Below, piece after piece: positions 3,156 through 37,900 of a stretch of 55,081 nt of DNA. Source of the stretch: a virus; the IMG/VR virus record IMGVR_UViG_3300029787_000060, positions 1-55,081 of that record. One strand, 5' to 3'. The notes beneath the pieces were generated by a model that was not told the origin of the DNA, made no database searches, and was given only the letters and a program-made list of their open reading frames with translations. Every line of letters starts with the position of its first letter. Within the stretch, counting starts at the first letter, position 1. Made by a program: the position numbers and the translations under genes.

Positions 3156-5617
3156 TGGCTATTGAAAAGTCTCTGGTCAGCAATCCGCTTGCAATAGATA
3201 GCGAAGAGTCTGTCGAGGTAAACATAGTTAACCCTGAAGCGGTCTCTATTGAGACTGAGGATGGTGGCGTTCTTTTGGATTTTAATCCAGAGGGCGGCTT
3301 TATGGGTGAATTAGATCACGGCGCTAACTTAGCGGAGTACATTGACCCTCAGACTCTGGACATGATTGGTTCAGATCTTGTGGGTGTGTATAACGCTGAC
3401 AAGGAAAGTCGATCTGAGTGGGAAGAATCCTACGTCAGGGGACTTGATTTGTTGGGTCTACGCTTTGAAGATCGTACACAACCTTGGGCTGGAGCTTGTG
3501 GTGTCTTTCACCCAATGCTTTCTGAGGCTGTAGTTCGCTTTCAAGCTCAGACAATACAAGAGATATTCCCTGCTGCTGGGCCAGCCAAGACCTCTATCGT
3601 GGGCAAACTCACTGATAGCAAGGTAAAGCAAGCCAGTAGAGTTCAAGATTACTTAAATTATTTAATGACACAGAGAATGTCTGAGTATCGGTCTGAGACT
3701 GAGAAGCTTTTATTCTCTTTGCCTATTGCAGGATCTGCTTTTAGAAAGGTTTATTTCGACCCCAACCTTAACAGACCTTGCAGTATGTTCGTTCCGGCGG
3801 AAGATTTTGTCGTTAGTTACGGCGCTTCTGACCTTAAGACCTGTGAACGTGCAACGCATGTGATGAAAAGAACTCCTAATGATATCAGGAAGTTACAAGT
3901 TTCTGGCTTCTATAGGGATATTGACTTGCCATCTCCTTCTCCAGACATTGGAGAGATACAAGAGAAGTACAATAGGCTGACTGGTGACAGTGCCAACTAC
4001 GAAATTGACCACAGGCACACCCTATTGGAGATGGTTGTTGACTATGATCTCCCCGGTTTTGAGGATATGCAGGGTGGAGAGCAGACGGGTATAGCTTTGC
4101 CCTATGTAATCACCATCGATAAGGGTTCTCGAAAGATATTATCGATCAAGCGTAACTGGAATGAAGAAGATCCGCAGAAATTAAAGGTCGAACACTTCGT
4201 TCATTACACCTATTTGCCCGGATTAGGCTTCTATGGCTTCGGATTAGTCCACATGATAGGTGGATTAAGCAAGTCAGCCACTTCATTACTGCGTCAATTG
4301 GTGGATTCAGGCACGTTAGCCAACCTTCCGGGTGGTTTGAAGTCCCGTGGCCTTAAGATTAAGGGTGATGACACCCCGATTATGCCGGGAGAGTTCCGCG
4401 ATGTGGACGTTCCGGGCGGATCTATACGCGATAACATCAGTTTTATGCCGTATAAGGAGCCGTCTAACGTCCTTTACCAGCTTTTAGGGGACATTGTGTC
4501 GGAAGGCAGGCGGTTTGCCTCTGCTGCTGACGTAAAAGCCTCTGATATGAACTCTGAAGCCCCAGTTGGCACGACATTAGCCATACTTGAGCGCGAAATG
4601 AAGGTGTTAAGCGCAGTTCAGGCGCGTGTTCACGCCGCAATGGGGGCAGAATTAAAGATATTAAGCCGATTAGTGCATGATTATGGGCCGCAACGCTACC
4701 CATATGACGATGAGCAGCAACCACTAGCGGCAGAAGACTTCGATGATCGCATAGACATCATTCCTGTCAGCGATCCGAACAGTGGCACGATGGCCCAGCG
4801 CATAATGCAGTACCAAGCTGCGCTGCAACTCTCCGCCTCAGCGCCACAAATGTACGATCTACCACTACTTCACCGTCAAATGATTGAAGTGTTGGGCATA
4901 AGGGATGCAGAGAACATTATCCCCACGGATAAAGACATTAAGCCTACAGATCCTGTCACTGAGAACATGAATGTCATCAATGGGGAACCCATTAAGGCAT
5001 TTTCTTATCAGGATCATGAGGCGCATATACAAACTCACATGTCAGCAATGGAAGATCCTAAGCTATTGAAGTTACTTTCAATGGCTCCTGACGCTAAGGT
5101 GAAGCAGGCAGCAATGATGGCGCACATCTCTGAGCATGTGGCCTTCTCCTATCGACAACAGATAGAAAAAGAACTTGGCGTAGAACTGCCGCCGCCAAAT
5201 GAACAACTACCAGAAGACATTGAAAACAGGCTGTCTAAACTCGTTGCCCCTGCCGCTGCACAACTCACCGGGAAGGACAAGAGAGAGATGGAAGCCCAGC
5301 GTATTCAGGAGCAGATGCAAGATCCAATCGTCCAGCTCCAGCAAGCTGAATTGCAACTCAAAGCGAAGCAAGCTCAAGACAAAGCCCAAACCGATATGGC
5401 TAGAATTCAAGTGGATCTCGAAAAGAGTAGAGAAAAGAACGAGCTTGAAAGAGAGAAACTTTCTCAAGAGGTCAAGGTTGAAGGCGCTAAACTTGGTGTT
5501 CGCGTAGCTGAGGACGCATCCAGAGAGGACATCGAGAAGTCTCGGATGAAATCAAAGGATATGCTTGAGGGCGTTAAAGTCGGTGTCGAAATAGCGAAGG
5601 AGCTATCTGGTGAGTGA
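3155..5617 (+). CDS. Portal protein, P22-like
   Basis: The portal forms the twelve-subunit vertex ring through which DNA enters and leaves. At 820 aa it is in the range of large podovirus portals. The N-terminal body includes the conserved stretch near PWAGACGVFHPMLSEAVVRF, a central region with GIVLPY-like and LVDSGTLANLPGG segments, and a long charged C-terminal coiled coil from about residue 700, comparable with the barrel helix of P22 gp1. The start ATG at 3155 overlaps the preceding stop (TAATG). Its place between terminase and scaffold is classical. Confidence 0.88.
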   Translation: MAIEKSLVSNPLAIDSEESVEVNIVNPEAVSIETEDGGVLLDFNPEGGFMGELDHGANLAEYIDPQTLDMIGSDLVGVYNADKESRSEWEESYVRGLDLLGLRFEDRTQPWAGACGVFHPMLSEAVVRFQAQTIQEIFPAAGPAKTSIVGKLTDSKVKQASRVQDYLNYLMTQRMSEYRSETEKLLFSLPIAGSAFRKVYFDPNLNRPCSMFVPAEDFVVSYGASDLKTCERATHVMKRTPNDIRKLQVSGFYRDIDLPSPSPDIGEIQEKYNRLTGDSANYEIDHRHTLLEMVVDYDLPGFEDMQGGEQTGIALPYVITIDKGSRKILSIKRNWNEEDPQKLKVEHFVHYTYLPGLGFYGFGLVHMIGGLSKSATSLLRQLVDSGTLANLPGGLKSRGLKIKGDDTPIMPGEFRDVDVPGGSIRDNISFMPYKEPSNVLYQLLGDIVSEGRRFASAADVKASDMNSEAPVGTTLAILEREMKVLSAVQARVHAAMGAELKILSRLVHDYGPQRYPYDDEQQPLAAEDFDDRIDIIPVSDPNSGTMAQRIMQYQAALQLSASAPQMYDLPLLHRQMIEVLGIRDAENIIPTDKDIKPTDPVTENMNVINGEPIKAFSYQDHEAHIQTHMSAMEDPKLLKLLSMAPDAKVKQAAMMAHISEHVAFSYRQQIEKELGVELPPPNEQLPEDIENRLSKLVAPAAAQLTGKDKREMEAQRIQEQMQDPIVQLQQAELQLKAKQAQDKAQTDMARIQVDLEKSREKNELEREKLSQEVKVEGAKLGVRVAEDASREDIEKSRMKSKDMLEGVKVGVEIAKELSGE

Positions 5618-14863: not shown

Positions 14864-16018
14864 ATGGCTACTTATGAAAACAATCTAAGATTAAAAGAAA
14901 TCGCCACAGGTGACGAAAGCGGCACTTGGGGTACTAGTACAAACACAAATTTAGAGCTTGTTGGAGAATCGCTAGGGTTTGCTACTCAAGCAGCCTTTGC
15001 TTCTGATGCTAATGCTACTACTACAGTTGCTGATGGTGCTTCAGACCCTGCTCGTGCGCTCTACTTTAAGGTTACTTCTGGAGCATCTCTCACTGCTACC
15101 AGAGAGCTGACTATTGGCCCTAACACAAATACACGGGTTATGTGGATAGAGAACGCTACTACTGGCAGTCAGTCCATAACTATAAAGCAAGGTTCGGGGG
15201 CTACTGTAACGATAGCTACAGGCAAAACAAAAGTTGTTTATTTAGATGGGGCTGGTGCAGGAGCTGCTGTAGTTGATGCTCTAGCCTTAGTTGAAGACAT
15301 TACTGACGGTGATGTTGTTGGGCCGGGAAGCTCTACTAACAATAACTTCACAGCTTTTGACGGAACCACTGGTAAGCTAGTCAAGGACAGTGGTAAGGCA
15401 ACTCCTTCTGGTGATGTTGTTGGAACCAGTGATACTCAGACTCTAACCTCTAAGACTCTGACTAGTCCTAAAGTTGGCACAGGAATCAACGACACCAACA
15501 ACGCTGAGTTACTTAAGGTAACAGCAACAACTTCTGCCGTAAACGAACTTACTTTGGCAAATGCTGCTACAAGCAACAATCCAGCTTTGTCTGCTACAGG
15601 TGATGATACTAACGTAGGAATTGATGTTACTCCCAAAGGAACCGGCGAGGTTAATGTTACAGCAAGTTTCTTGACTGGGATATTTTCGGACAAAGTCAGC
15701 GCACTGGGTAACACTGGCAGCGCAAAGACTCTAGACGCATCTACAGCTCAAGTGTTTACAGCTACATTGACCGACAATGTTACATTTACTCTTTCTGGAG
15801 AAAATGCTGTATCTAATCGTTCGTCATCTTTTATTCTTATTTTGACTAATGATGGTACGCCCAGTAGAACTGTAGCATTTTCTGGAGGAACGGTTGAGTT
15901 TCCCGGCGGTTCTGTTAGTCGTAGCACTGGGGCCAACGAAACTGACATCTGGTTCTTTATGACCCCAGATAATGGTACGACTTGGTATGTAACCATACCT
16001 ATGAAAAATATGTCTTAA
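14864..16018 (+). CDS. Tail fibre protein
   Basis: A 384-aa protein with the NLRLKEIATGDESGTWGTST N-terminus common to many marine phage tail fibres, followed by long beta-rich, Ser/Thr/Asn-rich repeats and a C-terminal beta domain (about 290-384). It would mediate host recognition. The SLTSKTLTSPKVGTGI-type segment (about 195-210) recurs in such fibres. A chaperone for fibre assembly is encoded 4 kb downstream. Confidence 0.8.
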   Translation: MATYENNLRLKEIATGDESGTWGTSTNTNLELVGESLGFATQAAFASDANATTTVADGASDPARALYFKVTSGASLTATRELTIGPNTNTRVMWIENATTGSQSITIKQGSGATVTIATGKTKVVYLDGAGAGAAVVDALALVEDITDGDVVGPGSSTNNNFTAFDGTTGKLVKDSGKATPSGDVVGTSDTQTLTSKTLTSPKVGTGINDTNNAELLKVTATTSAVNELTLANAATSNNPALSATGDDTNVGIDVTPKGTGEVNVTASFLTGIFSDKVSALGNTGSAKTLDASTAQVFTATLTDNVTFTLSGENAVSNRSSSFILILTNDGTPSRTVAFSGGTVEFPGGSVSRSTGANETDIWFFMTPDNGTTWYVTIPMKNMS

Positions 16019-16046: not shown

Positions 16047-16280
16047 ATGGCACTTACTGCCGAACAACAAGCACAAGTTGACCTTCAAGCAGCACTTGAT
16101 AAATGTCGAGTAGATGAGCAACTTCGTATTGATAATAAAAGAAACAAGCTAGACGCAGTTCGCACTGCGGAAAGACTACTCATCCATAACCGAGTAGATC
16201 AGCCATCTGGAAGTCGTGAAATAACTGCATCCGATGTTACAGCCTACGCTCAGACATTAGTGGAATATATTGAAAGTTAA
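16047..16280 (+). CDS. Small helical protein of unknown function
   Basis: A 77-aa protein with a Gln/Ala-rich helix and a DVTAYAQTLVEYIES end. AGGAGATACCGTT precedes the ATG. It directly follows the fibre gene and its stop overlaps the first oxygenase start (TAATG), so it is in one transcription unit with them. No recognisable motif. Confidence 0.6.
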   Translation: MALTAEQQAQVDLQAALDKCRVDEQLRIDNKRNKLDAVRTAERLLIHNRVDQPSGSREITASDVTAYAQTLVEYIES

Positions 16281-16852
16281 TGAATTGCTATTCATATTTC
16301 CCTTCTCTGGTTTACAGGGATGAAAAACCAGAGTGGTTGTATCCTTTAAAGAAATATGTAAGCGAGTATTCTGGGGAAGTTTCAGAACAAAATTCGTTTT
16401 TTCAAACTGCTGATATATCAGAATCTCCTGAGTTAAATGACTTTGCAAGATATATTCTAGAAGAATCAAATAAAATTCTTTGTGAGCAAGGTTATGATGT
16501 AGACAGGTATAACCTTAAGGTAAACATCTGGGCGCAGGATGCTTATCGTGGGTCATCAACAAACATTCACGTTCATAAGAATTCTTTTCTTTGTGGGTGG
16601 ATGTTTTTGGATAGACCGGAAAAAGGCTCTTACCCGATCTATTATGATCCAAGAGTTAGAAAAAGCATGTCTAGTCCAGACAGTTTTGTTTCAGAGAGTC
16701 TTACGGAAAGTTCTGAAACATGTCACTTCAATAATGTTGGGCCGGGTACGGTGCTTATATCTAGCTCGTGGCTAGAGCATTCTCTTTCAGCAAATAATGA
16801 TGACCTGCCTACAACATGTCTCCACTTTATTGTTTCTGGCGCATATAAATAA
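16280..16852 (+). CDS. 2OG-Fe(II) oxygenase family protein (first of six)
   Basis: The 190-aa protein shows an HVH motif (H97, H99), a strand FLCGWMFLDRPEKGSYPIYY and a distal H167 in LISSSWLEHS, the order of metal ligands seen in the 2OG-FeII_Oxy_5 group. These enzymes use iron, oxygen and 2-oxoglutarate to hydroxylate a substrate. The usual aspartate of HxD is not at the expected place, as in other members of this group. Substrate unknown. The start overlaps the preceding stop. Confidence 0.7.
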   Translation: MNCYSYFPSLVYRDEKPEWLYPLKKYVSEYSGEVSEQNSFFQTADISESPELNDFARYILEESNKILCEQGYDVDRYNLKVNIWAQDAYRGSSTNIHVHKNSFLCGWMFLDRPEKGSYPIYYDPRVRKSMSSPDSFVSESLTESSETCHFNNVGPGTVLISSSWLEHSLSANNDDLPTTCLHFIVSGAYK

Positions 16853-17436
16853 TGCAATACCCGATAGTCCCCTATGCAAGAACAACTGAACCGTATGTTT
16901 GGTGGAAGGGTGGCTTTTCAGAAAATGAAATTGAATGGCTTGCACAGAAGGCTTTAGTGGCTAATGAACGCGCTCAAGCGGGTGGTCAGACCGAGGATAC
17001 TCTTTTAAATGTGAGGCGTTCCTATGTCAATTGGCTTGAATGTGATAACGAAAGCAAATGGGTTTATGAAAAGCTTGAAAATATAGTTTCTAGTTTGAAC
17101 GCGCAATATTATGGGTTTGACCTTACTTGCTTTGCTGAGGCGCTTCAGTTGACTCGTTATTGCATGTCAGAGCAAGGGATGTACGGATGGCATCAAGATT
17201 GTGGTGAGGGCGGGAAGCCAAACAGAAAATTGTCTTTGGTTATGCAGTTGACTGACCCATCTCAATATGAGGGAGGCAACTTAGAGATAATGACAAACAA
17301 AGACCCTCTTGTTGTTCCAAAAGAAAAAGGTCTTGTAACGGTGTTCCCTTCGTACATGTTGCATCAAGTAACCCCTGTTGTTCAGGGGGAAAGGGCTTCT
17401 CTTGTAACTTGGATATCTGGGCCTACGTTTAAATGA
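16852..17436 (+). CDS. 2OG-Fe(II) oxygenase, prolyl-hydroxylase type (second of six)
   Basis: A 194-aa protein with a complete facial triad: H114 and D116 in YGWHQD and H171 in FPSYMLHQV, with R181 ten residues later positioned for the 2-oxoglutarate carboxylate. The strand GGNLEIM and the turn LVTVFPS are typical of the P4H/PKHD fold. It is the most canonical of the six. It abuts the previous gene (TAATGC) and overlaps the next by four bases. Confidence 0.88.
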   Translation: MQYPIVPYARTTEPYVWWKGGFSENEIEWLAQKALVANERAQAGGQTEDTLLNVRRSYVNWLECDNESKWVYEKLENIVSSLNAQYYGFDLTCFAEALQLTRYCMSEQGMYGWHQDCGEGGKPNRKLSLVMQLTDPSQYEGGNLEIMTNKDPLVVPKEKGLVTVFPSYMLHQVTPVVQGERASLVTWISGPTFK

Positions 17437-18023
17437 ATGTTGAATATAAAGACTTCATAGGTATTTTTGAGGATGTGTACCCTGAAGGTTTCTGTGAATA
17501 TGTAATAAAAGAATTTGAAAGAATTAAGGAAACTGGCGCTGGTTGGAATCGCCAGAATACTGAAGGTGTATCTCGTTTGCATAAAGCAGATCATGCTCTC
17601 AATATTTTAAATCATGCAGCTCCCAATTTTGGTGAGGATCGTATGGAAGATGTTTTCTTTGGGGGGCTTCAAAAATGTTTTGAGTCTTATTCGGAAACAT
17701 TTTCTCAGTTAAAAAATGTTGAAGTTAGAGGGACGTACATGAAAGTCCAGAAGACTTGTCCCGCAGAGGGGTATCATGTTTGGCATTCAGAGAGAGCGCA
17801 CGGAAGAGATAAGGAAAGAGTCTTAGTTTATAACTTGTACCTTAATGATATAAAAGATGAGGATGGTGGAGAGACTGAGTTCTTGTATCAAAAACTTCGG
17901 GTGTCCCCAAAGAAAAACACCGTTGTTATGTGGCCTGCTGATTTTACTCACGTTCATCGTGGTAATCCGCCTCTGGGAAAAGAAGATAAGTACATAGCAA
18001 CTGGCTGGTTTTACTATGAATAG
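17433..18023 (+). CDS. 2OG-Fe(II) oxygenase (third of six)
   Basis: This 196-aa protein has YHVWHSERA (H118, E120, an HxE variant of HxD), LVYNLYLNDI and GGETEFLY strands and FTHVHRGNPP with H173 or H175 as the distal ligand. The motif set is common among marine phage oxygenases. ATG overlaps the preceding TGA (ATGA). The substrate is unknown. Confidence 0.82.
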   Translation: MNVEYKDFIGIFEDVYPEGFCEYVIKEFERIKETGAGWNRQNTEGVSRLHKADHALNILNHAAPNFGEDRMEDVFFGGLQKCFESYSETFSQLKNVEVRGTYMKVQKTCPAEGYHVWHSERAHGRDKERVLVYNLYLNDIKDEDGGETEFLYQKLRVSPKKNTVVMWPADFTHVHRGNPPLGKEDKYIATGWFYYE

Positions 18024-18612
18024 CTTTGCAGAGAAAGGCTACACCATAGTAAAAGGCTTTCTTGATTTGGAAGAGACGGTAAGAATATCAAAATATTTAG
18101 AAAACTGTGTGAATAGAAAAGCTTGTAGCACAAGGACTGGAGAAGAAAATATTACGGATCAGCCGAGTAGATTTTATTATTACGCTGATCCCTTGATCGA
18201 ACTTATCTTAGAAGAGAAGACTAAAGAAATAGAGGAGATTGTTAATCTTCCTTTATATCCAACGTATTCATTTATGCGAGTCTATGTAGACAGTGACGCT
18301 TTAAGAAAGCATACGGACAGGCCTGAGTGTGAATACTCCGTTACCGTTCATGTTGCTAAAGTTGGTAAAGACTGGCCTATATGTATTAAAGACATACACG
18401 GCAATGACAATAAGATTATTTTAGACCAAGGGGATGCTTTGGTTTATAGAGGTTGTGATTTGTTGCACTGGAGAGACCCTATGAAGCAGTGCGGTACGGA
18501 TTTAAATGCCCAGTTTATGCTACATTACGTTGAAAAAGATGGCCCCTACAGTATATGTAAGTTTGACAGAAGGCCGAAATTAGGATTAAGCGACAGTTTT
18601 AAAGCGAGGTAA
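18016..18612 (+). CDS. 2OG-Fe(II) oxygenase-like protein (fourth of six)
   Basis: The 198-aa protein has RKHTDRPECEYSVTVHVA (H99, D101) and GDALVYRGCDLLHWRDP with H151 as distal ligand. An arginine in the usual position ten residues on is not obvious, so co-substrate binding may differ. It overlaps the third oxygenase by eight bases and precedes the glycine-rich protein by two. Confidence 0.78.
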   Translation: MNSFAEKGYTIVKGFLDLEETVRISKYLENCVNRKACSTRTGEENITDQPSRFYYYADPLIELILEEKTKEIEEIVNLPLYPTYSFMRVYVDSDALRKHTDRPECEYSVTVHVAKVGKDWPICIKDIHGNDNKIILDQGDALVYRGCDLLHWRDPMKQCGTDLNAQFMLHYVEKDGPYSICKFDRRPKLGLSDSFKAR

Positions 18613-18614
18613 TT

Positions 18615-19613
18615 ATGCCTATAGGATCATCGAAAGCTGGGGTTCTGGGCGCAGGTGTTGTCCCCGGTGGTTCAGAAACATTTAATTCGTCTGGCACGTT
18701 TAGCGTCCCTGTGGGGGTTACTTGCGTCAGTGTCACGGGTTTAGGCGGAACAGGTAATGCAGGTAATGCAGGTCAGCCGGGTGGCGCTGGCGGTGGTGGC
18801 GGTGGTGGTGCTGGAAAATGCGTTCAGAACCAAAACACTTCTCCCATAGTAGTTAATCCCAGTTTTTTTATCGGGCCTAATTTTAGGAATAGAGGCGGCG
18901 GCGCTCCGGGTTATCCCGCTCAGTGCGGTGGTTCCGCAGGAAATCCGGGCAGTACAGGCCAAGCTTCTTCTGTTTTTTGTATTAATTTTGCTGGCGGTGC
19001 AGGCGGTAATGGCGGCGCTGTCGGTAATGATGGTCAGCTAGGAGCAACTGGTGATACAAGTAATTCAAATATAAGTTCTCCAACTAACTCCAGCACCAAC
19101 CCCTCTGGAGTTGGCAATAATGTTAGTGGCACTGGTGCGCCATTATCGGGTCGCGGTGGGTCGGGTTTTGCGGGTACTCCTGATGGCTACGGTGTTGGCG
19201 GCGGAGGGGGTGGTGGAGCAGGGGTAACTAATGCCGGACAAGACGCTAATGACCGTGGCGCTAGGTGTGGTGGAAACCCCGGAGGTGGCCCAAGCGGAAA
19301 CGGGGCATCTAACCTCCCGTCTGGGCCAGCTAACGCGCAGAGCGGCTCAGGCGCAAACGCAGAAAGAGCAGGCGGTGGCGGCGGTGGTGGTGGTGTAGTC
19401 CGCTATCAGGCAGTTCAGGATGCAGTAGGTTTCTTTAGTTCTGGCGCGGCTGGAGGTGGTCGTGGAAACGCAGGTGGTGGTGGTCAACCCGGAAATCCCG
19501 GTCAAGCTGGAAGCCCATCTACATCTAATGGTGTTACTGTTTGTTCGGGAACATCATATCCCGTTACGGTAGCAAGCGGTGGTCAAATTGTTGTCAATTG
19601 GAATCCTCAATAA
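18615..19613 (+). CDS. Glycine-rich adhesin or fibre-tip protein
   Basis: A 332-aa protein begins with a small beta domain (ETFNSSGTFSVPVGVTCVSV), then has several hundred residues with runs of five to eight glycines and GxxG or PGNPGQAGSP collagen-like stretches, and ends in a beta segment YPVTVASGGQIVVNWNPQ. Glycine-rich regions of this sort form polyglycine II sandwiches in phage S16 adhesin gp38, so receptor binding is a fair inference. Five cysteines or so are dispersed. It sits between oxygenase genes, which may act on it or may simply be neighbours. Confidence 0.75.
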   Translation: MPIGSSKAGVLGAGVVPGGSETFNSSGTFSVPVGVTCVSVTGLGGTGNAGNAGQPGGAGGGGGGGAGKCVQNQNTSPIVVNPSFFIGPNFRNRGGGAPGYPAQCGGSAGNPGSTGQASSVFCINFAGGAGGNGGAVGNDGQLGATGDTSNSNISSPTNSSTNPSGVGNNVSGTGAPLSGRGGSGFAGTPDGYGVGGGGGGGAGVTNAGQDANDRGARCGGNPGGGPSGNGASNLPSGPANAQSGSGANAERAGGGGGGGGVVRYQAVQDAVGFFSSGAAGGGRGNAGGGGQPGNPGQAGSPSTSNGVTVCSGTSYPVTVASGGQIVVNWNPQ

Positions 19614-20128
19614 TGGCAAAAAGTAGATTAGATAAAGCGCGTGAAGAAGCCGAAATTGCTCAGACTAAGGCCCGAGAGGAGGCTACAATTGCCTCTATAA
19701 AAGCAGAGGCCGCAGGTCGGGCAAGGGGTCTGACAGTAGGTACGGCTTTTGGTGGAACCACAGAAATCGCAATGCGTGGCAATGATGGCAGGTATGTGTA
19801 TAGTCTTCTTCAACCTGTTGAAGTAATAGAGCTTATACATCAACTATCGGCAAATGTTGGATGTCACCTAAAGCTTTTGCCCAGACACGATTTTGCAAGT
19901 TGGCGAGATTGGAAGGTTACTGAGGAGGAGCTTGCTCACTTTCGTGGTAATCAACCGCTTCCCGGTATGGGCCATCCTCCGCATGTTAATGATATGGCTC
20001 CACATAAAGATGAAGGAGGCGGAGTATTGCCTGCTCCAGAAAATCAGAAAGGCGTTCCTATAGCCTTGAAGGGTGAAGAGAATGTTATGGCAATTGAAGA
20101 GGCTGTCAACAAACGAAGCTCTCAGTGA
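19613..20128 (+). CDS. Conserved fibre-module protein with N-terminal coiled coil
   Basis: The 171-aa protein has a charged coiled coil (about 1-40; repeated Ala/Glu/Arg/Lys), then a conserved core GNDGRYVYSLLQPVEVIELIH and a CHLKLLPRHDFASWRDW segment, and a disordered Pro/Gly tail. Similar proteins accompany the glycine-rich fibre in marine phages. The ATG overlaps the previous stop. Function unknown; a fibre connector is possible. Confidence 0.62.
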   Translation: MAKSRLDKAREEAEIAQTKAREEATIASIKAEAAGRARGLTVGTAFGGTTEIAMRGNDGRYVYSLLQPVEVIELIHQLSANVGCHLKLLPRHDFASWRDWKVTEEELAHFRGNQPLPGMGHPPHVNDMAPHKDEGGGVLPAPENQKGVPIALKGEENVMAIEEAVNKRSSQ

Positions 20129-20465
20129 GGCCGGAGAATTACCTCAAGATTGGGGGCCAATTTTTGGACTTGAGGGCGTTAAGGATCGGCTAGGCGATTT
20201 GTCTTGGCTTGGCAAGCATTATGAAGATATGGGGTGGGTTGAGGTTGAAGGTGAATTGCCGCCTCTCCCAGCAGAAGCAACTCCATCTGAGATTGTCTGG
20301 CAAAAGGCAAAAGACCTCCTAAAAGATTCTGACTGGTCTATGATTTCTGATGTGCCTATGACAGTTAGACAGAAGCAATTGTGGATAGAATATCGCAAAG
20401 CCTTAAGAGACATTAGGCTTCAACCAAATTTCCCTGAAGTGGATTGGCCTAAAAAGCCTGAGTAA
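20073..20465 (+). CDS. Tail fibre assembly chaperone
   Basis: Residues about 75-125 match the phage tail assembly chaperone family (PF16778 as I remember): SDWSMISDVPMTVRQKQLWI, then YRKALRDIRLQPNF and DWPKKP at the end. Such chaperones help fold or trimerise fibres. It starts at a GTG (20073) or ATG (20082) inside the previous gene, overlapping by about 50 bp. Confidence 0.8.
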   Translation: MKRMLWQLKRLSTNEALSEAGELPQDWGPIFGLEGVKDRLGDLSWLGKHYEDMGWVEVEGELPPLPAEATPSEIVWQKAKDLLKDSDWSMISDVPMTVRQKQLWIEYRKALRDIRLQPNFPEVDWPKKPE

Positions 20466-20466
20466 T

Positions 20467-21000
20467 ATGGACAAGAGCCTAGACTTCGGACTGCCGCTAT
20501 TCAAAACAAAAGCTGCTGGTCATCAATCTAACAAATCAAAAATAGTAGAGTGTATTGAGTCTGGCACAAAGTACGGAATAGATAGCAGTAATATAAAACT
20601 TTCTAGTTGTGATTGGCATGTCATAGGCGCGAAGAAAGAGTATTGGGAATACAGCCAGTGCGATATACAAAGTCATGTAGAAGAGGTGGCCCGTTCTTTA
20701 AACTTTTCAGAATGGTCAATAAACGATTACTGGTATCAGTATTACAGGACAAATGATTTTCACGATTGGCATGTTCACGGTAACTGCATGTTCGTTGGTG
20801 TTTATTATGTCAAGTTAAGCGCAGATCACCCAAAGATACTATTTAGCTGGGAAGGGAAAGAGTACGCTTCCCCAGTAGAGGAGGGAGATATCATTACATT
20901 TCCCTCCTTTCTTCATCATAGAGCGCCAAAGAATGAGACTGAAGATAGCAAGTTAATAATATCTTTTAATGTTAATTTCAATATTGGCGTTTATGAGTGA
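20467..21000 (+). CDS. 2OG-Fe(II) oxygenase, Oxy_5 type (fifth of six)
   Basis: The 177-aa protein has a YYRTNDFHDWHVHGNCMFVG core (H99, H102 and H104 near the active site), a GVYYVKLS strand, and EGDIITFPSFLHHRAPKNET with H150/H151. This is the layout of the 2OG-FeII_Oxy_5 group and resembles the first oxygenase. A final IISFNVNF strand closes the fold. It starts one base after the chaperone stop. Confidence 0.8.
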   Translation: MDKSLDFGLPLFKTKAAGHQSNKSKIVECIESGTKYGIDSSNIKLSSCDWHVIGAKKEYWEYSQCDIQSHVEEVARSLNFSEWSINDYWYQYYRTNDFHDWHVHGNCMFVGVYYVKLSADHPKILFSWEGKEYASPVEEGDIITFPSFLHHRAPKNETEDSKLIISFNVNFNIGVYE

Positions 21001-21218
21001 AGTACAGGATTAGGTTCAATAAGTCTAGAGGTCAGCCCGGAAGAGGATCTGAGCAGCACGTTTGGAGAGTTCTTCAAGGTGAAGATGAGTTACTTGCCAA
21101 GCATGTAGTGATTGAGGTTCCTTCTCACAGTGAGCAAGAAGGCCCAGACTGGAATATTGTGTGTGATGGAAGACTAATGTTTTTTAAAGACACCGATACT
21201 GTTGTGATATGCAAATAA
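20997..21218 (+). CDS. Small conserved protein of marine phages
   Basis: A 73-aa protein with KYRIRFNKSRGQPGRGSE at its start and a GPDWNIVCDGRLMFF strand later. I recall similar proteins in pelagic phages and cyanophages, always uncharacterised. GTG start overlaps the fifth oxygenase stop; its own end overlaps the sixth oxygenase by ten bases, so the three are tightly coupled. Confidence 0.65.
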   Translation: MKYRIRFNKSRGQPGRGSEQHVWRVLQGEDELLAKHVVIEVPSHSEQEGPDWNIVCDGRLMFFKDTDTVVICK

Positions 21219-21799
21219 ATTTTTATCGAAAAGATAATTTAAGTTATGCCGTTATAGATGAGTATTTTACTGATGAAGAATATTCGGAAGTCTTGTCAGA
21301 GGTTAGAGATTTAAAGCGTTTGTCTGTAAACCCAAAGCTCACTGCCTCAGCTAAGAATAAATCTGGCGATACGCTGAAGACAGGTAATGGTGTTTTTGTA
21401 GATCAATTGTATCAATGTAATAGAGGCGCATCTCCGTTGCTTCGCACTGGAAGAAAAATATTTGACGAAAAATTATGTGACGCTTTAGAAAAATGCGATG
21501 TCATATTCAACGCTATAAGAGAATCTAATGTAGACACTATGCTTATAAATTATTATTCGCCGGGCGAAGTTTACAAAACGCATAAAGATACTTGCAATAT
21601 AACGGCAATATCTTTAATGGGTTGGGGCGATTTCTCTGGTGGGGGATTTTGTTTCCCAGATCAAGACATAACCGTTAGTTTTAAACAAGGCCGAACAGTT
21701 GTATTCCCCTCATGCGCTAATCATTCTAGCGAACCTATTCAGGGTTCTGATGAAGATTGCAGGGTTTCTGTAGCGCATTTTATGTGGGGAGAAAAATGA
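21209..21799 (+). CDS. 2OG-Fe(II) oxygenase (sixth of six)
   Basis: A 196-aa protein with complete ligands: H125 and D127 in YKTHKDTC, H172 in FPSCANHSSEP, and R185 in CRVSV near the end. The GGGFCFPDQ strand lies between. It is canonical for the superfamily and distinct from the second oxygenase in sequence, which suggests independent origin rather than recent duplication. Confidence 0.85.
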   Translation: MQINFYRKDNLSYAVIDEYFTDEEYSEVLSEVRDLKRLSVNPKLTASAKNKSGDTLKTGNGVFVDQLYQCNRGASPLLRTGRKIFDEKLCDALEKCDVIFNAIRESNVDTMLINYYSPGEVYKTHKDTCNITAISLMGWGDFSGGGFCFPDQDITVSFKQGRTVVFPSCANHSSEPIQGSDEDCRVSVAHFMWGEK

Positions 21800-22365: not shown

Positions 22366-22592
22366 TGGAACTTACTGGACAAATTGTTTTTGATGTAATT
22401 ATTTTAATAGCGGGATTTTTGGCAGCGTGGGCATACAATCGTGTATATACCTTGTTGGATAGAATGGATTTAGATCTAAAAAAGGTATCTGAAAAATACG
22501 TTGCTAAAGATGATTACCGTGAGGACATCCGTGAAATTAAAGAGATGCTGGGTGCAATATTTAAGCGACTAGAAAACAAGGCTGATAAATGA
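22365..22592 (+). CDS. Small membrane protein, possible holin accessory
   Basis: A 75-aa protein has one N-terminal membrane segment (QIVFDVIILIAGFLAAWAY) and a charged C-terminal helix DDYREDIREIKEMLGAIFKR that resembles XhlA-type haemolysin/holin accessory proteins. I set the start at ATG 22365, overlapping the previous stop. With the 3TM holin 2 kb downstream it may modulate lysis timing. Confidence 0.62.
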   Translation: MELTGQIVFDVIILIAGFLAAWAYNRVYTLLDRMDLDLKKVSEKYVAKDDYREDIREIKEMLGAIFKRLENKADK

Positions 22593-23362
22593 AACTTGAT
22601 CCTGTACTTCTTAATATGGCCTGTAGCTGGGCGATGAACGCCTACAAAAAGCGTAACAAAGTAGATGCTATTCACATAGAGAGCAAGTGGACATCCACTA
22701 CAGTATATGTGGCTAAACGAAAAACTATAGACATCATAGCTTTCAGAGGCACACAACAGGGCAGAGATTGGCTAACAGACGCGCTCGTAGTCCCCGTTCC
22801 GTATGCGGGTAGGCTGTGCCACGGTGGGTTTACTTTGGCACACAAGTCAGTCTGGAAAGAAGTTAAGAAACACATTGATCCCAATAAACGTACTTTAATT
22901 TGCGGTCATAGTCTTGGTGGTGCGTTAGCAGAGCTATCGGCCTCTATGCTGAATGGCAAGCACGACAACATAAACTTGATTACCTTCGGTAAGCCAAACG
23001 TATTCTTTAAGGGCTTTAAGAAGCCAATGACGCTTGATAATCAAATATCTTGTGTGCAGGGCAGCGATATGGTCGCTAGAATTCCCCGACTTTGTTACGG
23101 CCCATCAAGCTCACAGACTATGTTGTACTTCAGCAATACTGGCCCCGATTACATAGACCCTAGCAAAGATACTAGAAAAGCTGATAGAGGTGATTTAAAA
23201 GACCGGATAGCTGACCATATGATGGACGGCTATAAAGAAAGGTTGAAGCTATTCCTTGACGGGCAAGAACGAGAAGCTAAGAAAGTTGTCCCCCTAACTA
23301 AAGGCGAATTAAAAGAGCTAAAGAGGATAGAAGATGAAATCGATTTCCCTAGTGCTAACTAG
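22589..23362 (+). CDS. Class 3 lipase-like alpha/beta hydrolase
   Basis: The 257-aa protein shows AFRGTQQ (oxyanion strand), a CHGGF turn and the nucleophile elbow GHSLGG with S108; D160 (QGSDMVARIP) and H210 (ADHMMDGY) complete a plausible triad. Class 3 lipases hydrolyse acylglycerols or phospholipids. No signal peptide is evident, so if it reaches membranes it needs a holin or lysis. It lies in the lysis module and may attack host lipids at lysis, which is inference. Confidence 0.82.
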   Translation: MKLDPVLLNMACSWAMNAYKKRNKVDAIHIESKWTSTTVYVAKRKTIDIIAFRGTQQGRDWLTDALVVPVPYAGRLCHGGFTLAHKSVWKEVKKHIDPNKRTLICGHSLGGALAELSASMLNGKHDNINLITFGKPNVFFKGFKKPMTLDNQISCVQGSDMVARIPRLCYGPSSSQTMLYFSNTGPDYIDPSKDTRKADRGDLKDRIADHMMDGYKERLKLFLDGQEREAKKVVPLTKGELKELKRIEDEIDFPSAN

Positions 23363-24994: not shown

Positions 24995-25422
24995 TGGATA
25001 AGTTACTGGCTATGCTAAAACGGCATGAGGGCGTAGAGTCTCATGCATATGAATGCTCTGAGAATAAGATCACTGTAGGTGTTGGTCGTTGCATAGATCA
25101 AAAGGGCGGTATTGGTTTGTCTGATGACGAGATTGACTATCTTTTACAGAACGATATTGAGCGCGTTATTAAAGAACTTTCTTCTGAATATTCTTGGTTT
25201 AACTCTCTGGATGATGTTCGCAAAGATGCGATAGTAGATATCTCCTTTAATCTTGGGCAAACCAGACTCAGGCTTTTTAAAAGAGCTTTGGCAGCGATGG
25301 ACTCTGGCGATTATAAAGAAGCTGCTACAGAATTCCTTGACTCCAGATGGGCAAAGCAGGTCGGAGGTCGAGCGTTAGAGTTGACTGATATGATATCCAG
25401 CGGTGAGTATGCAGATGGCTAA
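24994..25422 (+). CDS. Endolysin, GH24 (T4-type) lysozyme
   Basis: A 142-aa muramidase. Aligned by eye with T4 lysozyme (E11-D20-T26), E12 and T27 are present but the aspartate position is C21 (HEGVESHAYECSENKITVGVG). T4 lysozyme D20C keeps activity, so E-C-T may be functional. The later DISFNLGQTRLRLFKRAL segment and DSRWAKQVGGRA are typical of the family. No signal peptide, so export depends on the holin. Confidence 0.88.
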   Translation: MDKLLAMLKRHEGVESHAYECSENKITVGVGRCIDQKGGIGLSDDEIDYLLQNDIERVIKELSSEYSWFNSLDDVRKDAIVDISFNLGQTRLRLFKRALAAMDSGDYKEAATEFLDSRWAKQVGGRALELTDMISSGEYADG

Positions 25423-25843
25423 CCCATATATATTTACAGCTACGGTATCCAAAATTGTTGATGGAGACACAATGTATGTTACTGACATCAATTTGGGTTT
25501 TGGGGTTGTTAATCGTGGTGATACTGGGCGGGGTATTTGTTTGCGTCTTAATGGAGTTGATACTCCAGAATCTAGGACAAGAGATTTGGAAGAAAAGCGT
25601 TACGGACTCGCAGCAAAAGCATTTGTCCAAGCGTTCTCTCCGGTAGGCACTGAAGTTACCCTTAGAACCTACGAGAAGGGGAAGTACGGGCGGTGGCTGG
25701 CTGACATTAAGGTAGGAAACAAGTGGTTATGCAAAGAGCTTATAAACAATTATCATGCGGTTCAGTATGAAGGACAGAGTAAAAAAGAAATAAAGAAAGC
25801 TCATCTTGCTAATAGGCTAAAGGTAAATTTAGATGTTGGTTAA
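25403..25843 (+). CDS. Staphylococcal-nuclease-like protein
   Basis: The 146-aa protein carries SNase hallmarks: KIVDGDTMYV (D20/D22), CLRLNGVDTPES (R48, E56) and KGKYGRWLADI (R97). Such calcium-dependent nucleases cut DNA and RNA. It may start at GTG 25403, or at ATG 25409 or 25415, all inside the lysozyme end. No signal peptide is clear. Placement between endolysin and stabilisation gene could mean host DNA clearance at lysis; inference. Confidence 0.8.
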   Translation: MSMQMANPYIFTATVSKIVDGDTMYVTDINLGFGVVNRGDTGRGICLRLNGVDTPESRTRDLEEKRYGLAAKAFVQAFSPVGTEVTLRTYEKGKYGRWLADIKVGNKWLCKELINNYHAVQYEGQSKKEIKKAHLANRLKVNLDVG

Positions 25844-33307: not shown

Positions 33308-34993
33308 ATGTATAACATCCTTGAGGTTGAGGATAAAATAAAAGGCTTGCCTGATCAGGCTCTTATGAGAGAGGCCCAGTTTCCTAGCGGTGATGTGCCG
33401 CAGTTTCTTGTTGTTTCAGAATTACAGCGCCGGAATGAAATGCGTAAGTCCTATGCAGCAATGCAGGAACCATCTCAGACTGTTCCGGTTGCCCAACAGG
33501 TAGTGGCGGAGGCAGGTCAGGGTATTGCTGGCGTTGTGGGCGGCAATGCTTTGCCTGTCTCTGCTCCTATGCAAGCACAGACCCCAATGGCTGCACCTAT
33601 GCAGTCCTCTATGCCAGCACCTATGCAGCCTCCCGTACAACCTCCTATGCAACCTCCTATGCCACGCCCTCAAGCCCCTGCTGGGATAGTGGGTATGCAG
33701 TCAGGTAGACAGGCTCCCTATCAGCGTCAATATAGGGATTTTGCCGGAGAAGCAAGGGATAGGAGAGAGAGGAAAATTGAAGAGCTTTACAGAGACTTAA
33801 ACCCATCCCAAGCTACTACATACCTTAGCTTGATTGAAAGCGGTGTTGATCCTGAAGAAGCTCTGTTTTCAGTCAGTGATGTTTATAGAACAGATGATAC
33901 GTTAACTGGCGTGGAAGAAATCCAATCTATTCAACCTTTTGACCCTAGTAAAGTTCCAAGCAGAACTGCTGGCCCAATAGGTACTGAGTACGATGATCCC
34001 CTTAATCTAGACCTTACATACGGTGATGGTTTTCCTGTTCCTGTCCCTGACCCTGCTGATCCTCCTCCAGATCCAAGTCAGCTAGAACTTGGCAGTTATA
34101 GGCAAGGGATTATGGATTTAACTAAGGCAGGAAGGGAAGATATTGCAGCATTAAGAGGTCAAATTAATGAACTTGATCCTTATCAAGCAAGTTTTACAGA
34201 GCGTGATTTTATTGCTGATAACATAGATAGGCAGTCTTACATAGATAGATTGTCTAATATTGCAGGAGAGGACATAGCGTCTAGAGAAGTCTTAATTGAT
34301 GAACTTCAAGAGAAGTCTAAGAAGGATGCTCTTAGTGCTTTCCTCATGAGCTTTGGTGCTGGTGTAGCTGGCGGAGACCTTAGCGGTGGAATACAGCAAG
34401 GAAGCAAGGCTGCTCAAGACGTTAAACAAATAGCTGACAAGAGGCTATTTGATGAGCGCAAGGCAATGAGAGATGTCAAGTCTGCTGCTGAAAGAGAAGC
34501 CGTTCAGCTAGGTTTGTCCGCTGAAGAAGCCGCACTTGCTGGGCAGAGGGCAGAGCAGCAGTTTGGGGCTGATCAAGATGCACTCAGAAACACTATTGAA
34601 TTTCAGAACTACACAACATCTAGACAACAATTGCTAGATCAAATTTCTGGAGCGAGAGAGGATGTCACTACCATTGCCACTCTTATGAAAAACGAAGCAG
34701 ATATCATTAATGATGCAAATAGAATTAGGCAAGCTTTTGAGGCTGAGGCTGGCAGAGAAAGAAGAGATATAAGGAACTACATTGAAGAGTTTGTTAAGGC
34801 CCATAGAGAAACCTTGGAAGCATCTCTTTCTGGGATAACTGATCCTTCTTCTGTTACTAACCTTGTTGATTCCTATAGAAAATTGCTTGAGCAGGAGTTT
34901 AATTTGAGAGAAGCTGATGATGAATCTTCTCCTCCGTCTGCGGTAGAAGATCTTGTTTCTTCTATGAGCATTAACAGATCACTCACTAACTAA
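33308..34993 (+). CDS. Internal virion protein with Pro/Met/Gln-rich linker
   Basis: A 561-aa protein with a conserved N-terminus (LPDQALMREAQFPSGDVPQF; VVSELQRRNEMRK), a Pro/Met/Gln linker (about 85-125, repeats around PMQPP), a helical coiled-coil body (about 270-500) and an acidic end. Small Gly/Ala patches (AFLMSFGAGVAGGDLSGGIQ) might touch membranes. ATG has TAGGAGATAAAAT upstream. Probably ejected or structural within the head. Confidence 0.72.
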   Translation: MYNILEVEDKIKGLPDQALMREAQFPSGDVPQFLVVSELQRRNEMRKSYAAMQEPSQTVPVAQQVVAEAGQGIAGVVGGNALPVSAPMQAQTPMAAPMQSSMPAPMQPPVQPPMQPPMPRPQAPAGIVGMQSGRQAPYQRQYRDFAGEARDRRERKIEELYRDLNPSQATTYLSLIESGVDPEEALFSVSDVYRTDDTLTGVEEIQSIQPFDPSKVPSRTAGPIGTEYDDPLNLDLTYGDGFPVPVPDPADPPPDPSQLELGSYRQGIMDLTKAGREDIAALRGQINELDPYQASFTERDFIADNIDRQSYIDRLSNIAGEDIASREVLIDELQEKSKKDALSAFLMSFGAGVAGGDLSGGIQQGSKAAQDVKQIADKRLFDERKAMRDVKSAAEREAVQLGLSAEEAALAGQRAEQQFGADQDALRNTIEFQNYTTSRQQLLDQISGAREDVTTIATLMKNEADIINDANRIRQAFEAEAGRERRDIRNYIEEFVKAHRETLEASLSGITDPSSVTNLVDSYRKLLEQEFNLREADDESSPPSAVEDLVSSMSINRSLTN

Positions 34994-37900
34994 TGCCAAC
35001 TACAATTGTTAACGCACCTGATGGTGGGCTGATAAGCGTCAACCATCCTGAAGGAACTAGCGACCAAGATATTCTGAACTATGCTGCAAGGATGTTCTCG
35101 GAAGATCCTTCTATTTCTCTTCGCCCGGAAGAAGAGAACATCACTCTAACCGGAAGGATTGCTGAGACAGCGAAGGCTGTACCCAGAGGGTTTGCTTCCG
35201 GCTTCCTCACAGCAGCAGAAGGTCTTGCTGAACTCTCTGATGCCGCCACTAACGCCATAGGTCTTGAAGGTCTTATAGATTCCGGTGACGAGAATGCTCT
35301 TGTCTATGGAGCTAGGCAGGCTAAAGAGGCAATCAACTCTACGATAGGGGCTGACAAAGCCTATCAAGACCTGTGGAGTACCAAGTTTGGTGAGGGCTTA
35401 GGTTCCTTTGCCACGTTCCTTACACCCGGCGCGGCATTCAGGCTGGCAGGTAACGCATCAAAAGCAGCAAAAGCAACCACTGGTTTGACTAAGTTAGTTG
35501 GTGCTGGAAGCGCAGCGGAGGCTGCTACTGTTGCAACTCTTGCTACGGGAACTGGTGCTGGAGAGCAGGCACAAAGAATCCAGATGGCTAGAGATTCTGG
35601 CGTTGAGATAAGTCAAGCTCAAGAAGACTCAGCTATTGCCTTAGCTTCCATTGTTGGTCTATCAGAACTAGCCCCTGTAGAAAGGTTGTTTAGAAAGTTA
35701 GACAAAAACCTAGTAGACGATAAGACACTTAATACTATTGGTGACCGAATCAAGTCTGCCCTTGGCACTGGTGGTGTTGAAGCTGTACAAGAAGCTGTTG
35801 CTGGCTTGTCTCAGGACTTGATTGAAAAGAATATATATAACGAGGAGTTGCCAATTGGCGAGTCCTTGTACGATGACTTTACTGTAGGCGGTGCTGTTGG
35901 TTTTGTATCTGACCTAGTTCTAAACGCTGCTGCTGGCAGGCGTAGAGGAGTCTCCAGTGAGACCGAAAGAGAGTATGAAAGAAAGTTAAGAGAAGCTAAC
36001 GCGCAAGCCGCCGAAGATCAGGCGGAACTTGTTAGCAACATAGGCCGTGAAGAAGTCCTTGAACCTCAAGTCATAATGCCTGACCAAGATGACGTTCAGG
36101 GTATGCCTTCTTACGCACGAAAAGTAGCTAGGGATATGGGTCAGAACTTCCCATTGACCACAAGCTTTGGCGTTCAAGAAACAACAGAGACAGTTACCAG
36201 AACTGTAACCAATCAGGCTGGCGAGACTATCCAAAGAGAAGAACAAGTCCCTGCATTTGTAGCGACTGACTCTGATGGCAGGATATACGGCAAGACATTT
36301 CAGAATTATGAGCAGGCAGCAGTTTTTGCTGGCGCTCTCAATGATCAGCTTATCAACAGGGCTGTGACCAATTCAGTATCAGACATTATTGATACCTCTC
36401 CACAGGCTTATGACCAGCCTACCTTCCAAACCCTTTCCTTCTGGGGCAACTCCGCCCTAAATCCAGAGAACAATACTGTTACGTCTAACGCCTTGAATAT
36501 GGCGGCAGGCACAACTATTGATCAGGGTTTTAATGAACAGGAAACCTCTACTGATGCGGCAAGAAGAATTAGCAACTTGGCTGCAAGGGGGCAAGCACCT
36601 GTAAATCCTATGAGTCTTATGACTGCATCACAACGTGCCAACTGGAGCAGGCTTGGCAGTGGTCAGTCAGAAACAGATGTCTTTACTTTTGAAGAAGCTA
36701 AGAAAGAGTTAGGTGATGACGTTGCTAATCTTGCTGATGTGAGAGAAGACTCAACGATAGAGACAGAGACTTATCGTGTTGATAAAGATAACAGGGGCAG
36801 GCCCATAGTGGTTAGCTCTGCTGGTGAAATTATCACACAAAGACCTACTACGCTAGTAGAGCGTAGGGAGAAGAAGGGTCTTGGCAGAACTACAAGAATG
36901 CAGACGGAGCAACAAGCTCAGGCTGTAGCCGCTGGTCTAAACACTATGGCAGGAAGGGCTGTAGATAAGCTTGTATTTCAGGACAGAACTTACGGGCGTG
37001 AAGAGATTAAGAATTTACTGGAAGCCAAGAATGTAACTGACGAGCTTAACTCTCCTCAGATAAAAGCTCTGGCCCAGTCATTCACAGGGAAATCAGGCGT
37101 AGACAAGATGTCTCGCGCTGAGATGAAACTGTTTTACTTGAAGTTACGATCTCTACCACGGTTCGAGGTGGCGACTAGTCTTCCTGTATTTACCCCCAAG
37201 ATATACACAAGCCAGCAGTTTCGTCTGGCCTCTCAGCATGTTGGGCAGAACCCGGATTACACTAACGAGTCTTTGGCTGAGGCTGTTGGTATTAGTGAAA
37301 CTGATCCTCGCTTTGAAAAGAAGATAGAGCAAATCACTGCTGATCTTAATGCTCAAGGGGTAGAGTCCGTAGAGGTTACTGAAGAGGCTGTCATTCCTGT
37401 TGAGCGTAGACTGCCAAGTGCTAGTGAGGAGATTACTCAGCAGCTTGAGAAGCAGCTCTCAGAAGAGATGGATAAGCTTAACCTTGGTGACGTAAGGGTC
37501 AGTGTTCTTCATGCTCTGACCAATGTTGTCAGGGATGCTGATGGAAATCTGGTTCTAGGCGTAAGAAGGTTTGATCCCGCCAGAGACCAAGGAGCTACGA
37601 CTCTTGACCAAGAGGGTAACTTTGTCGCTGACGAGTTGCCTGAGCAAGAGCAAGCTCTCTACTCAAGGAATTTGAACGAAGTATTCTTTGGCGTTGACAG
37701 GCTGCAAAGATTATCTGATGAGGGCGCTACTCCAGAGCAACTGTTTGAGACTGCGAAGTCTCTCCTGAACCACGAGTCAGTACACGCTATGCGTATGCTT
37801 GATCTCTGGACAGCGAATGAATGGTCTAGCCTAGAAAGGCTTGCTAGAACTAAGAAAAATTCGCTTGGTCAAACCTACCTTGAGGCTGCTCAAAAAACAT

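Follow-up and report, generated by a model that had tools for sequence, protein, structure and literature searches.

A recurrent array of predicted 2-oxoglutarate oxygenase genes coupled to a glycine-rich fibre-like protein in related viral contigs

Clusters of 2-oxoglutarate (2OG)-Fe(II) oxygenase genes are already known in marine phages, which are rich in these enzymes, and the literature found casts them as metabolism or DNA-repair genes. In the pelagiphage Mosig EXVC030M (MT647606), seven such genes are found in the vicinity of the tail-fibre genes, four of them labelled 2OG and one each Asp_Arg_Hydrox, “ferrochelatase” and “endonuclease V”. Co-located 2OG genes were described in 2022 in HTVC023P-type phages, with 2OG oxygenases paired with ferrochelatases in pelagiphages (PMC9599517), and the two kinds are jointly seasonally enriched in an ecological study in which the ferrochelatase (PHROG_2954) is a headline auxiliary gene (PMC11561400). 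Considered here is a viral record of 55,081 bases from an uncultured aquatic phage (IMG/VR record IMGVR_UViG_3300029787_000060; the whole record is called the window), in which six predicted oxygenase genes, Ox1 to Ox6, lie among genes for a glycine-rich protein (GRP), a coiled-coil-like protein (CC), a tail assembly chaperone (APC) and a 73-aa protein (B73). Its terminase, TerL, is closest to those of HTVC023P-group phages (HTVC027P, 53% identity; 023Pt_psg01, 57%; HTVC023P, 52%).

Like HTVC023P-type phages and Mosig, the window has several non-orthologous 2OG genes and a PHROG_2954 gene beside tail genes. The isolate HTVC033P has a related cluster as well. The genes of HTVC023P-type phages are presented as partners in metabolism, “although not adjacent”, and the Ox4 kind is called a ferrochelatase, whereas here four overlapping genes form an array in fixed association with GRP-CC-APC-B73. 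A preliminary description of the window had regarded six oxygenases in one module as unusual, which Mosig's seven and the HTVC023P-type genes do not bear out. What is proposed here, with a probability put at roughly 0.55, is a fibre-tip modification module, in which Ox1–Ox4 would hydroxylate GRP so that the fibre gripping the host is chemically decorated.

The array and its neighbors in related contigs

So that no oxygenase served as bait, the IMG/VR search was anchored on B73, which gave 404 matches from which 80 loci were retained, and on GRP, which gave 51 loci. Clustering GRP at 90% and requiring at least 3 kb of upstream DNA left 68 non-redundant copies. The recurring order is S77 - Ox1 - Ox2 - Ox3 - Ox4 - GRP - CC - APC - (2OG or other enzyme) - B73 - (2OG). 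Three or four oxygenases stand directly 5' of GRP in 61 of the 68 copies (four in 37, three in 24), and two do in 4 more; APC and S77 are each present in 59, CC in 55 and B73 in 44. Neighboring oxygenase genes overlap as a rule within the arrays (96% of 185 pairs; median spacing -4 nt). In pairs of 70–97% identity the ratio of nonsynonymous to synonymous substitution rates (dN/dS) is 0.05–0.09 for Ox1–Ox4 and 0.14 for GRP and APC, values that are approximate with dS near saturation; Ox1–Ox4 are under purifying selection. An operon-like Ox1–Ox4 set is thus kept with GRP, CC and the chaperone across dozens of related viral contigs collected without an oxygenase bait, in keeping with the dedicated, fibre-coupled system suggested at the outset.

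The two remaining oxygenases behave differently. A 2OG gene is found directly upstream of B73, as Ox5 is, in 11 of 88 B73 loci, and directly downstream, as Ox6 is, in seven, so both are regarded as accessory. The preliminary description had allowed that relatives might carry random subsets unrelated to fibres; this is not the case for the core Ox1–Ox4, while Ox5 and Ox6 do come and go.

The module was mostly not found in wholly unrelated phages: 34 of the 37 copies with upstream genes join one backbone group, where a link means at least one homologous protein. With B73 as query, no isolate carrying the module was found in 50,697 phage records; B73 matches just one record of that collection, an uncultured one, and in bacterial genomes there is one distant match, on a betaproteobacterial contig from a metagenome-assembled genome. 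In the uncultured spring phage MW202545 (locus L370, 11363-12237) a 2OG gene overlaps a B73 homolog away from annotated fibre genes, and the oxygenase itself may have B73 as its partner.

Table 1. Genes of the oxygenase module and its upstream edge, in window coordinates.
Feature	Coordinates	Strand	Description
g14864	14864..16018	+	fibre-like structural protein; upstream edge of the variable slot
S77 (77 aa)	16047..16280	+	gene immediately 5' of the oxygenase array
Ox1	16280..16852	+	PF13759-type putative 2OG-Fe(II) oxygenase, H97-x-H99...H167
Ox2	16852..17436	+	predicted PKHD/prolyl 4-hydroxylase (P4H)-like 2OG-Fe(II) oxygenase (PF13640)
Ox3	17433..18023	+	predicted prolyl-4-hydroxylase-like 2OG-Fe(II) oxygenase (PF13640)
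Ox4	18016..18612	+	PHROG_2954 “ferrochelatase” match; predicted 2OG-Fe(II) oxygenase
GRP (332 aa)	18615..19613	+	glycine-rich, tail-fibre-tip-like; proposed substrate
CC	19613..20128	+	coiled-coil-like module protein; overlaps GRP stop
APC	20073..20465	+	phage tail assembly chaperone (PF16778)
Ox5	20467..21000	+	accessory PF13759-type putative oxygenase, H102-x-H104...H151
B73 (73 aa)	20997..21218	+	small module protein, highly conserved
Ox6	21209..21799	+	accessory PF13640-like predicted oxygenase

Open reading frame (ORF) calls in the window agree with the layout described earlier, of four contiguous, overlapping oxygenase genes (successive overlaps of 1–8 nt) and two more after GRP, CC and the chaperone (Table 1). 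All six were recovered where they had been placed, five through 2OG family profiles and Ox4 through its predicted fold, and the agreement is well outside what chance would give; the B73 ORF is absent from the earlier account. APC matches PF16778 (Phage_tail_APC) with E 4.3e-13 and 49.3 bits against a cut-off of 26.6. Promoter and terminator counts within the region are no higher than in shuffles, so no transcription boundary can be claimed there. A near-identity DNA search among phages gave no match. Farther downstream, 34993-44196 is a single ORF of 3067 aa.

Oxygenase families and the “ferrochelatase” label

Profile searches place Ox1 (E 1.1e-9) and Ox5 (E 4.8e-10) in PF13759 and Ox2 (E 2.9e-15) and Ox3 (E 2.7e-13) in PF13640; Ox6 reaches PF13640 just under the gathering cut-off (E 2.3e-5) and PHROG_61 at E 9.9e-15. 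By the PF13640 profile, then, Ox2, Ox3 and Ox6 classify as double-stranded beta-helix 2OG-Fe(II) oxygenases, while Ox1 and Ox5 are PF13759 members by profile and putative oxygenases. By sequence, the PDB relatives of Ox2 are PKHD hydroxylases (3dkq, PiuC) and those of Ox3 are prolyl 4-hydroxylases; Ox1 and Ox5 are related to 2rg4/3bvc, which are uncharacterised. An HxD/E...H iron triad is present in Ox2, Ox3, Ox4 and Ox6. In 40 module copies, H114/D116/H171 and R181 of Ox2 and H118/E120/H173 and K186 of Ox3 are 100% conserved, and Ox6 keeps H125/D127/H172 and R185 in 8 of 8. The expectation of an iron site in each enzyme therefore holds in full for four of the six; Ox1 and Ox5 keep HxH...H, as in their PF13759 relatives 2rg4/3bvc, with the usual acidic ligand not evident. 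Because the active-site residues are invariant or almost invariant at each of the four core positions, Ox1–Ox4 are distinct enzymes rather than recent copies.

Ox4 needs separate treatment. It has no 2OG match in the Pfam profile search, and its PHROG matches are only to families named “ferrochelatase”, the best being PHROG_2954 at E 3.9e-48. Its AlphaFold2 model (pLDDT 93.7, pTM 0.90), for which the alignment rows were the window and viral contigs only, gives 542 Foldseek matches in the PDB at E <= 0.001. The top one is a P. putida prolyl 4-hydroxylase (E 2.1e-8), others include EctD, SnoK, PHD2 and PiuC, and the best 50 are nearly all 2OG enzymes, with no ferrochelatase found among those 50. 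H99, D101 and H151 are invariant, both in an alignment of 76 sequences and in the 40 module copies. R153, Q166 and R88 are invariant too, at a spacing unlike that of the usual basic residue holding 2OG (about 10–12 after the distal His). With HemH there is a local match of 48–61 residues only, below cut-off. With a predicted 2OG fold and no full-length HemH match, the ferrochelatase reading is rejected, and the PHROG_2954 label is, on the predicted structure, very probably wrong for Ox4; it should be changed to 2OG-Fe(II) oxygenase. No paper correcting it was found in the open-licence literature. Another 2OG gene lies directly upstream of 70 of 75 Ox4 homologs, against a background of 28% of ORFs at the same loci, and 89% of these pairs overlap. 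Given the 2OG fold of Ox4, the published pelagiphage pairing of a 2OG oxygenase with a ferrochelatase would join two 2OG enzymes.

This bears on the view that these are auxiliary metabolic genes, serving the infected cell's metabolism of 2-oxoglutarate, iron or heme, with the ferrochelatase partner being Ox4, which is how such gene pairs (PMC9599517, PMC11561400) and cyanophage 2OG genes (PMC3037559) have been interpreted in print. It is considered quite unlikely here: Ox4 has a predicted 2OG fold with an invariant HxD...H, and four distinct enzymes fixed before the fibre-like GRP and the tail chaperone are not expected of metabolism genes.

Two other families matched by Ox3 and Ox6, PHROG_274 and PHROG_2297, are labelled “DNA endonuclease (V)” yet match 2OG oxygenases, and these labels may be wrong like that of PHROG_2954. 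The same labels, the activity of some 2OG oxygenases on DNA and the repair role proposed in cyanophages (PMC3037559) could be cited in favor of nucleic-acid modification or repair, AlkB/TET-like, by the window enzymes. In the profile search, however, no hit to a TET/JBP or AlkB family passed the cut-off, and the genes are placed in a fibre module, so that this is very improbable.

The glycine-rich protein as candidate substrate

GRP is about 32% glycine family-wide and contains short Gly-X-Y runs, those of at least four triplets making up 25% of its residues. GNP is the most frequent triplet, in collagen-like G-N-P/G-N-A repeats, and GNPG is found 336 times where shuffles predict 21.5. The positions within the triplets are distinct, with Pro at 16% of Y and 1.6% of X, and Asn at 35% of X and 4% of Y. 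Proline at Y, preceding glycine, is the classical site of collagen prolyl 4-hydroxylase, and in its primary structure GRP resembles a collagen-like prolyl-hydroxylase substrate in just this respect. The profile match to collagen IX is weak (E 0.02). An AlphaFold2 model (pLDDT 86.9) has beta strands at both ends and a glycine-rich core; its best PDB match, the Pam3 fibre, is not significant (E 0.1), and its best matches in BFVD include phage glycine-rich and tail fibre proteins, with E down to 1.4e-4 and low TM-scores.

Because of the collagen-like repeats, GRP is the best candidate substrate, for hydroxylation of proline or asparagine. In the proposed sequence of events, the four non-redundant 2OG-Fe(II) oxygenases would be made by translational coupling just 5' of GRP and would hydroxylate it in the infected cell, during or after its synthesis, most likely at Pro of X-Pro-Gly and/or Asn of Gly-Asn-X in the repeats. 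The fibre would be assembled by APC, perhaps with CC, after or alongside hydroxylation, with Ox5 and Ox6 as optional additional enzymes of the same locus, and the hydroxyls would adjust how stable a polyglycine/polyproline-II tip is or how it contacts the receptor. GRP should then be present in the virion, carry modified residues and influence host binding. If so, phage receptor-binding proteins would be targets of programmed post-translational chemistry.

Several observations weigh against this. Pairwise identities of GRP hardly correlate with those of the oxygenases (Spearman 0.10–0.19), while those of Ox1–Ox3 correlate well among themselves (0.75–0.83); co-evolution of GRP with the oxygenases is thus unsupported, and any action on GRP would rely on recognition of the repeat and not of the variable parts. 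Where a nearby glycine-rich protein of 2OG genes is of some other family, it shows no excess of Asn or Pro over controls (p 0.24, 0.97), so the idea that any such protein is N/P-rich is not supported and only GRP-family members carry the bias. GRP lacks an upstream oxygenase in three of the 68 copies. Some Ox4 pairs adjoin uvsW/uvsY in T4-like phages, and only 22 of 80 loci found with Ox4, many on short contigs, have a glycine-rich ORF, so the Ox4 family is broader than the module. Finally, the literature descriptions searched mention no oxygenases for the glycine-rich fibre tips of phages S16, PP01 and Pam3.

The enzymes might instead act on another virion protein, such as the upstream fibre g14864, CC or B73. 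Identity in CC follows that of the oxygenases more closely (Spearman about 0.5) than identity in GRP does, and the B73 homolog of MW202545 comes after a 2OG gene at a place where no fibre module is annotated. GRP, for its part, has a repetitive, position-specific Pro/Asn pattern like that of a hydroxylase substrate, and it is GRP that comes immediately after the array in most copies; a different virion target is therefore judged unlikely.

Exchange of the slot and comparison with known systems

Relatives of the window were sampled through a virion structural protein (VSP). Even close ones differ in the slot that g14864 and the lipase/lysozyme genes enclose. Locus L021 is 93% identical in VSP and 85–86% in neighboring genes, yet its Ox1–4 are at 34–53% and GRP/CC/APC at 41–47%. 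At L008 the flanks are 93–95% identical and the slot is filled by unrelated genes; no oxygenase was found there by the module profiles, and a 232-aa ORF has a weak partial match to PHROG_61, in a different part of the profile from that matched by the window oxygenases. Conversely, L088 has very distant virion proteins (22–34%) and Ox2/Ox3 at 55–59%. The module is exchanged as a block, and since relatives whose virion genes are 93% identical have a strongly diverged copy or unrelated genes in its place, it is taken to be exchangeable host-range cargo. Among 30 slots from two structural-marker samples, a glycine-rich protein was present in 4 of 4 with Ox4 and 2 of 26 without (Fisher p 5e-4, optimistic since the loci are partly related). 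Genes for a class 3 lipase and a staphylococcal-nuclease-like protein (window 22589-23362 and 25403-25843) adjoin the lysozyme gene and border the slot in relatives.

Other enzymes occur around some arrays. At L107 (6517-7989; same contig as L297 and L361) a tryptophan-halogenase-family gene (PF04820, E 1.7e-90) occupies the chaperone-B73 interval, the position of Ox5 in the window. A 491-aa ORF follows the chaperone gene at L295, and the chaperone-B73 interval of L251 contains, besides a 2OG gene, a 202-aa ORF (4886-5494), the start of which resembles by eye an S-adenosylmethionine methyltransferase motif. In another phage type, sulfotransferase genes (PF00685/PF13469) are found upstream of 2OG arrays (L120, 5265-6053; L125, 2517-3326). 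The halogenase and sulfotransferases are suggestive of surface chemistry, in few cases.

That the surface concerned is the host's was also raised in the preliminary description. The targets of the oxygenases would then be outer-membrane proteins, lipid A or glycans, or else the enzymes would serve to keep other phages out; they would sit in a fibre module since enzymes and fibre both define host range. A slot behaving as a host-range locus, the sulfotransferases of L120 and L125 and the uncorrelated divergence of GRP and the oxygenases all fit such a role. It is nevertheless rather unlikely, since in most copies the array directly precedes one protein family and its chaperone, Ox2, Ox3 and Ox4 resemble protein (prolyl) or PKHD hydroxylases, and no lipid-A hydroxylase match was seen in profile and PDB comparisons of the oxygenases.

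Fibre-tip modification might also be extended, more tentatively and at somewhat less than even odds, to a widespread phage assembly line, in which a collagen-like/polyglycine adhesin tip is modified in turn by four divergent 2OG oxygenases and interchangeable extras (Ox5, Ox6, the tryptophan-halogenase-family enzyme and possibly a methyltransferase). Receptor specificity would then be set by post-translational chemistry as well as by sequence.

No description of a fixed coupling between an overlapping oxygenase array and a glycine-rich fibre-like protein with its chaperone was found in the literature searched; the coupling offers a concrete, testable substrate for part of the unexplained 2OG gene pool. 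The nearest structural parallel to GRP and APC is the Pam3 fibre, gp24/gp25, with a glycine-rich, repeat-built tip and a dedicated assembly chaperone (PMC9608196), although the structural resemblance is weak and non-significant. The gp38 of S16 and PP01 is likewise a glycine-rich polyglycine fibre tip built of repeats; GRP differs from all three tips in its G-N-P/G-N-A triplets. For the enzymes, the parallels are in viruses of eukaryotes. Mimivirus encodes a lysyl hydroxylase of the collagen type. PBCV-1 has a prolyl 4-hydroxylase, a virus-encoded collagen-type hydroxylase, as cited in PMC9301287. In each case the virus brings its own hydroxylase for a Gly-X-Y protein, as is proposed for the window, but these are eukaryotic viruses with single enzymes, whereas the window is from a phage with an array of four to six divergent oxygenases.

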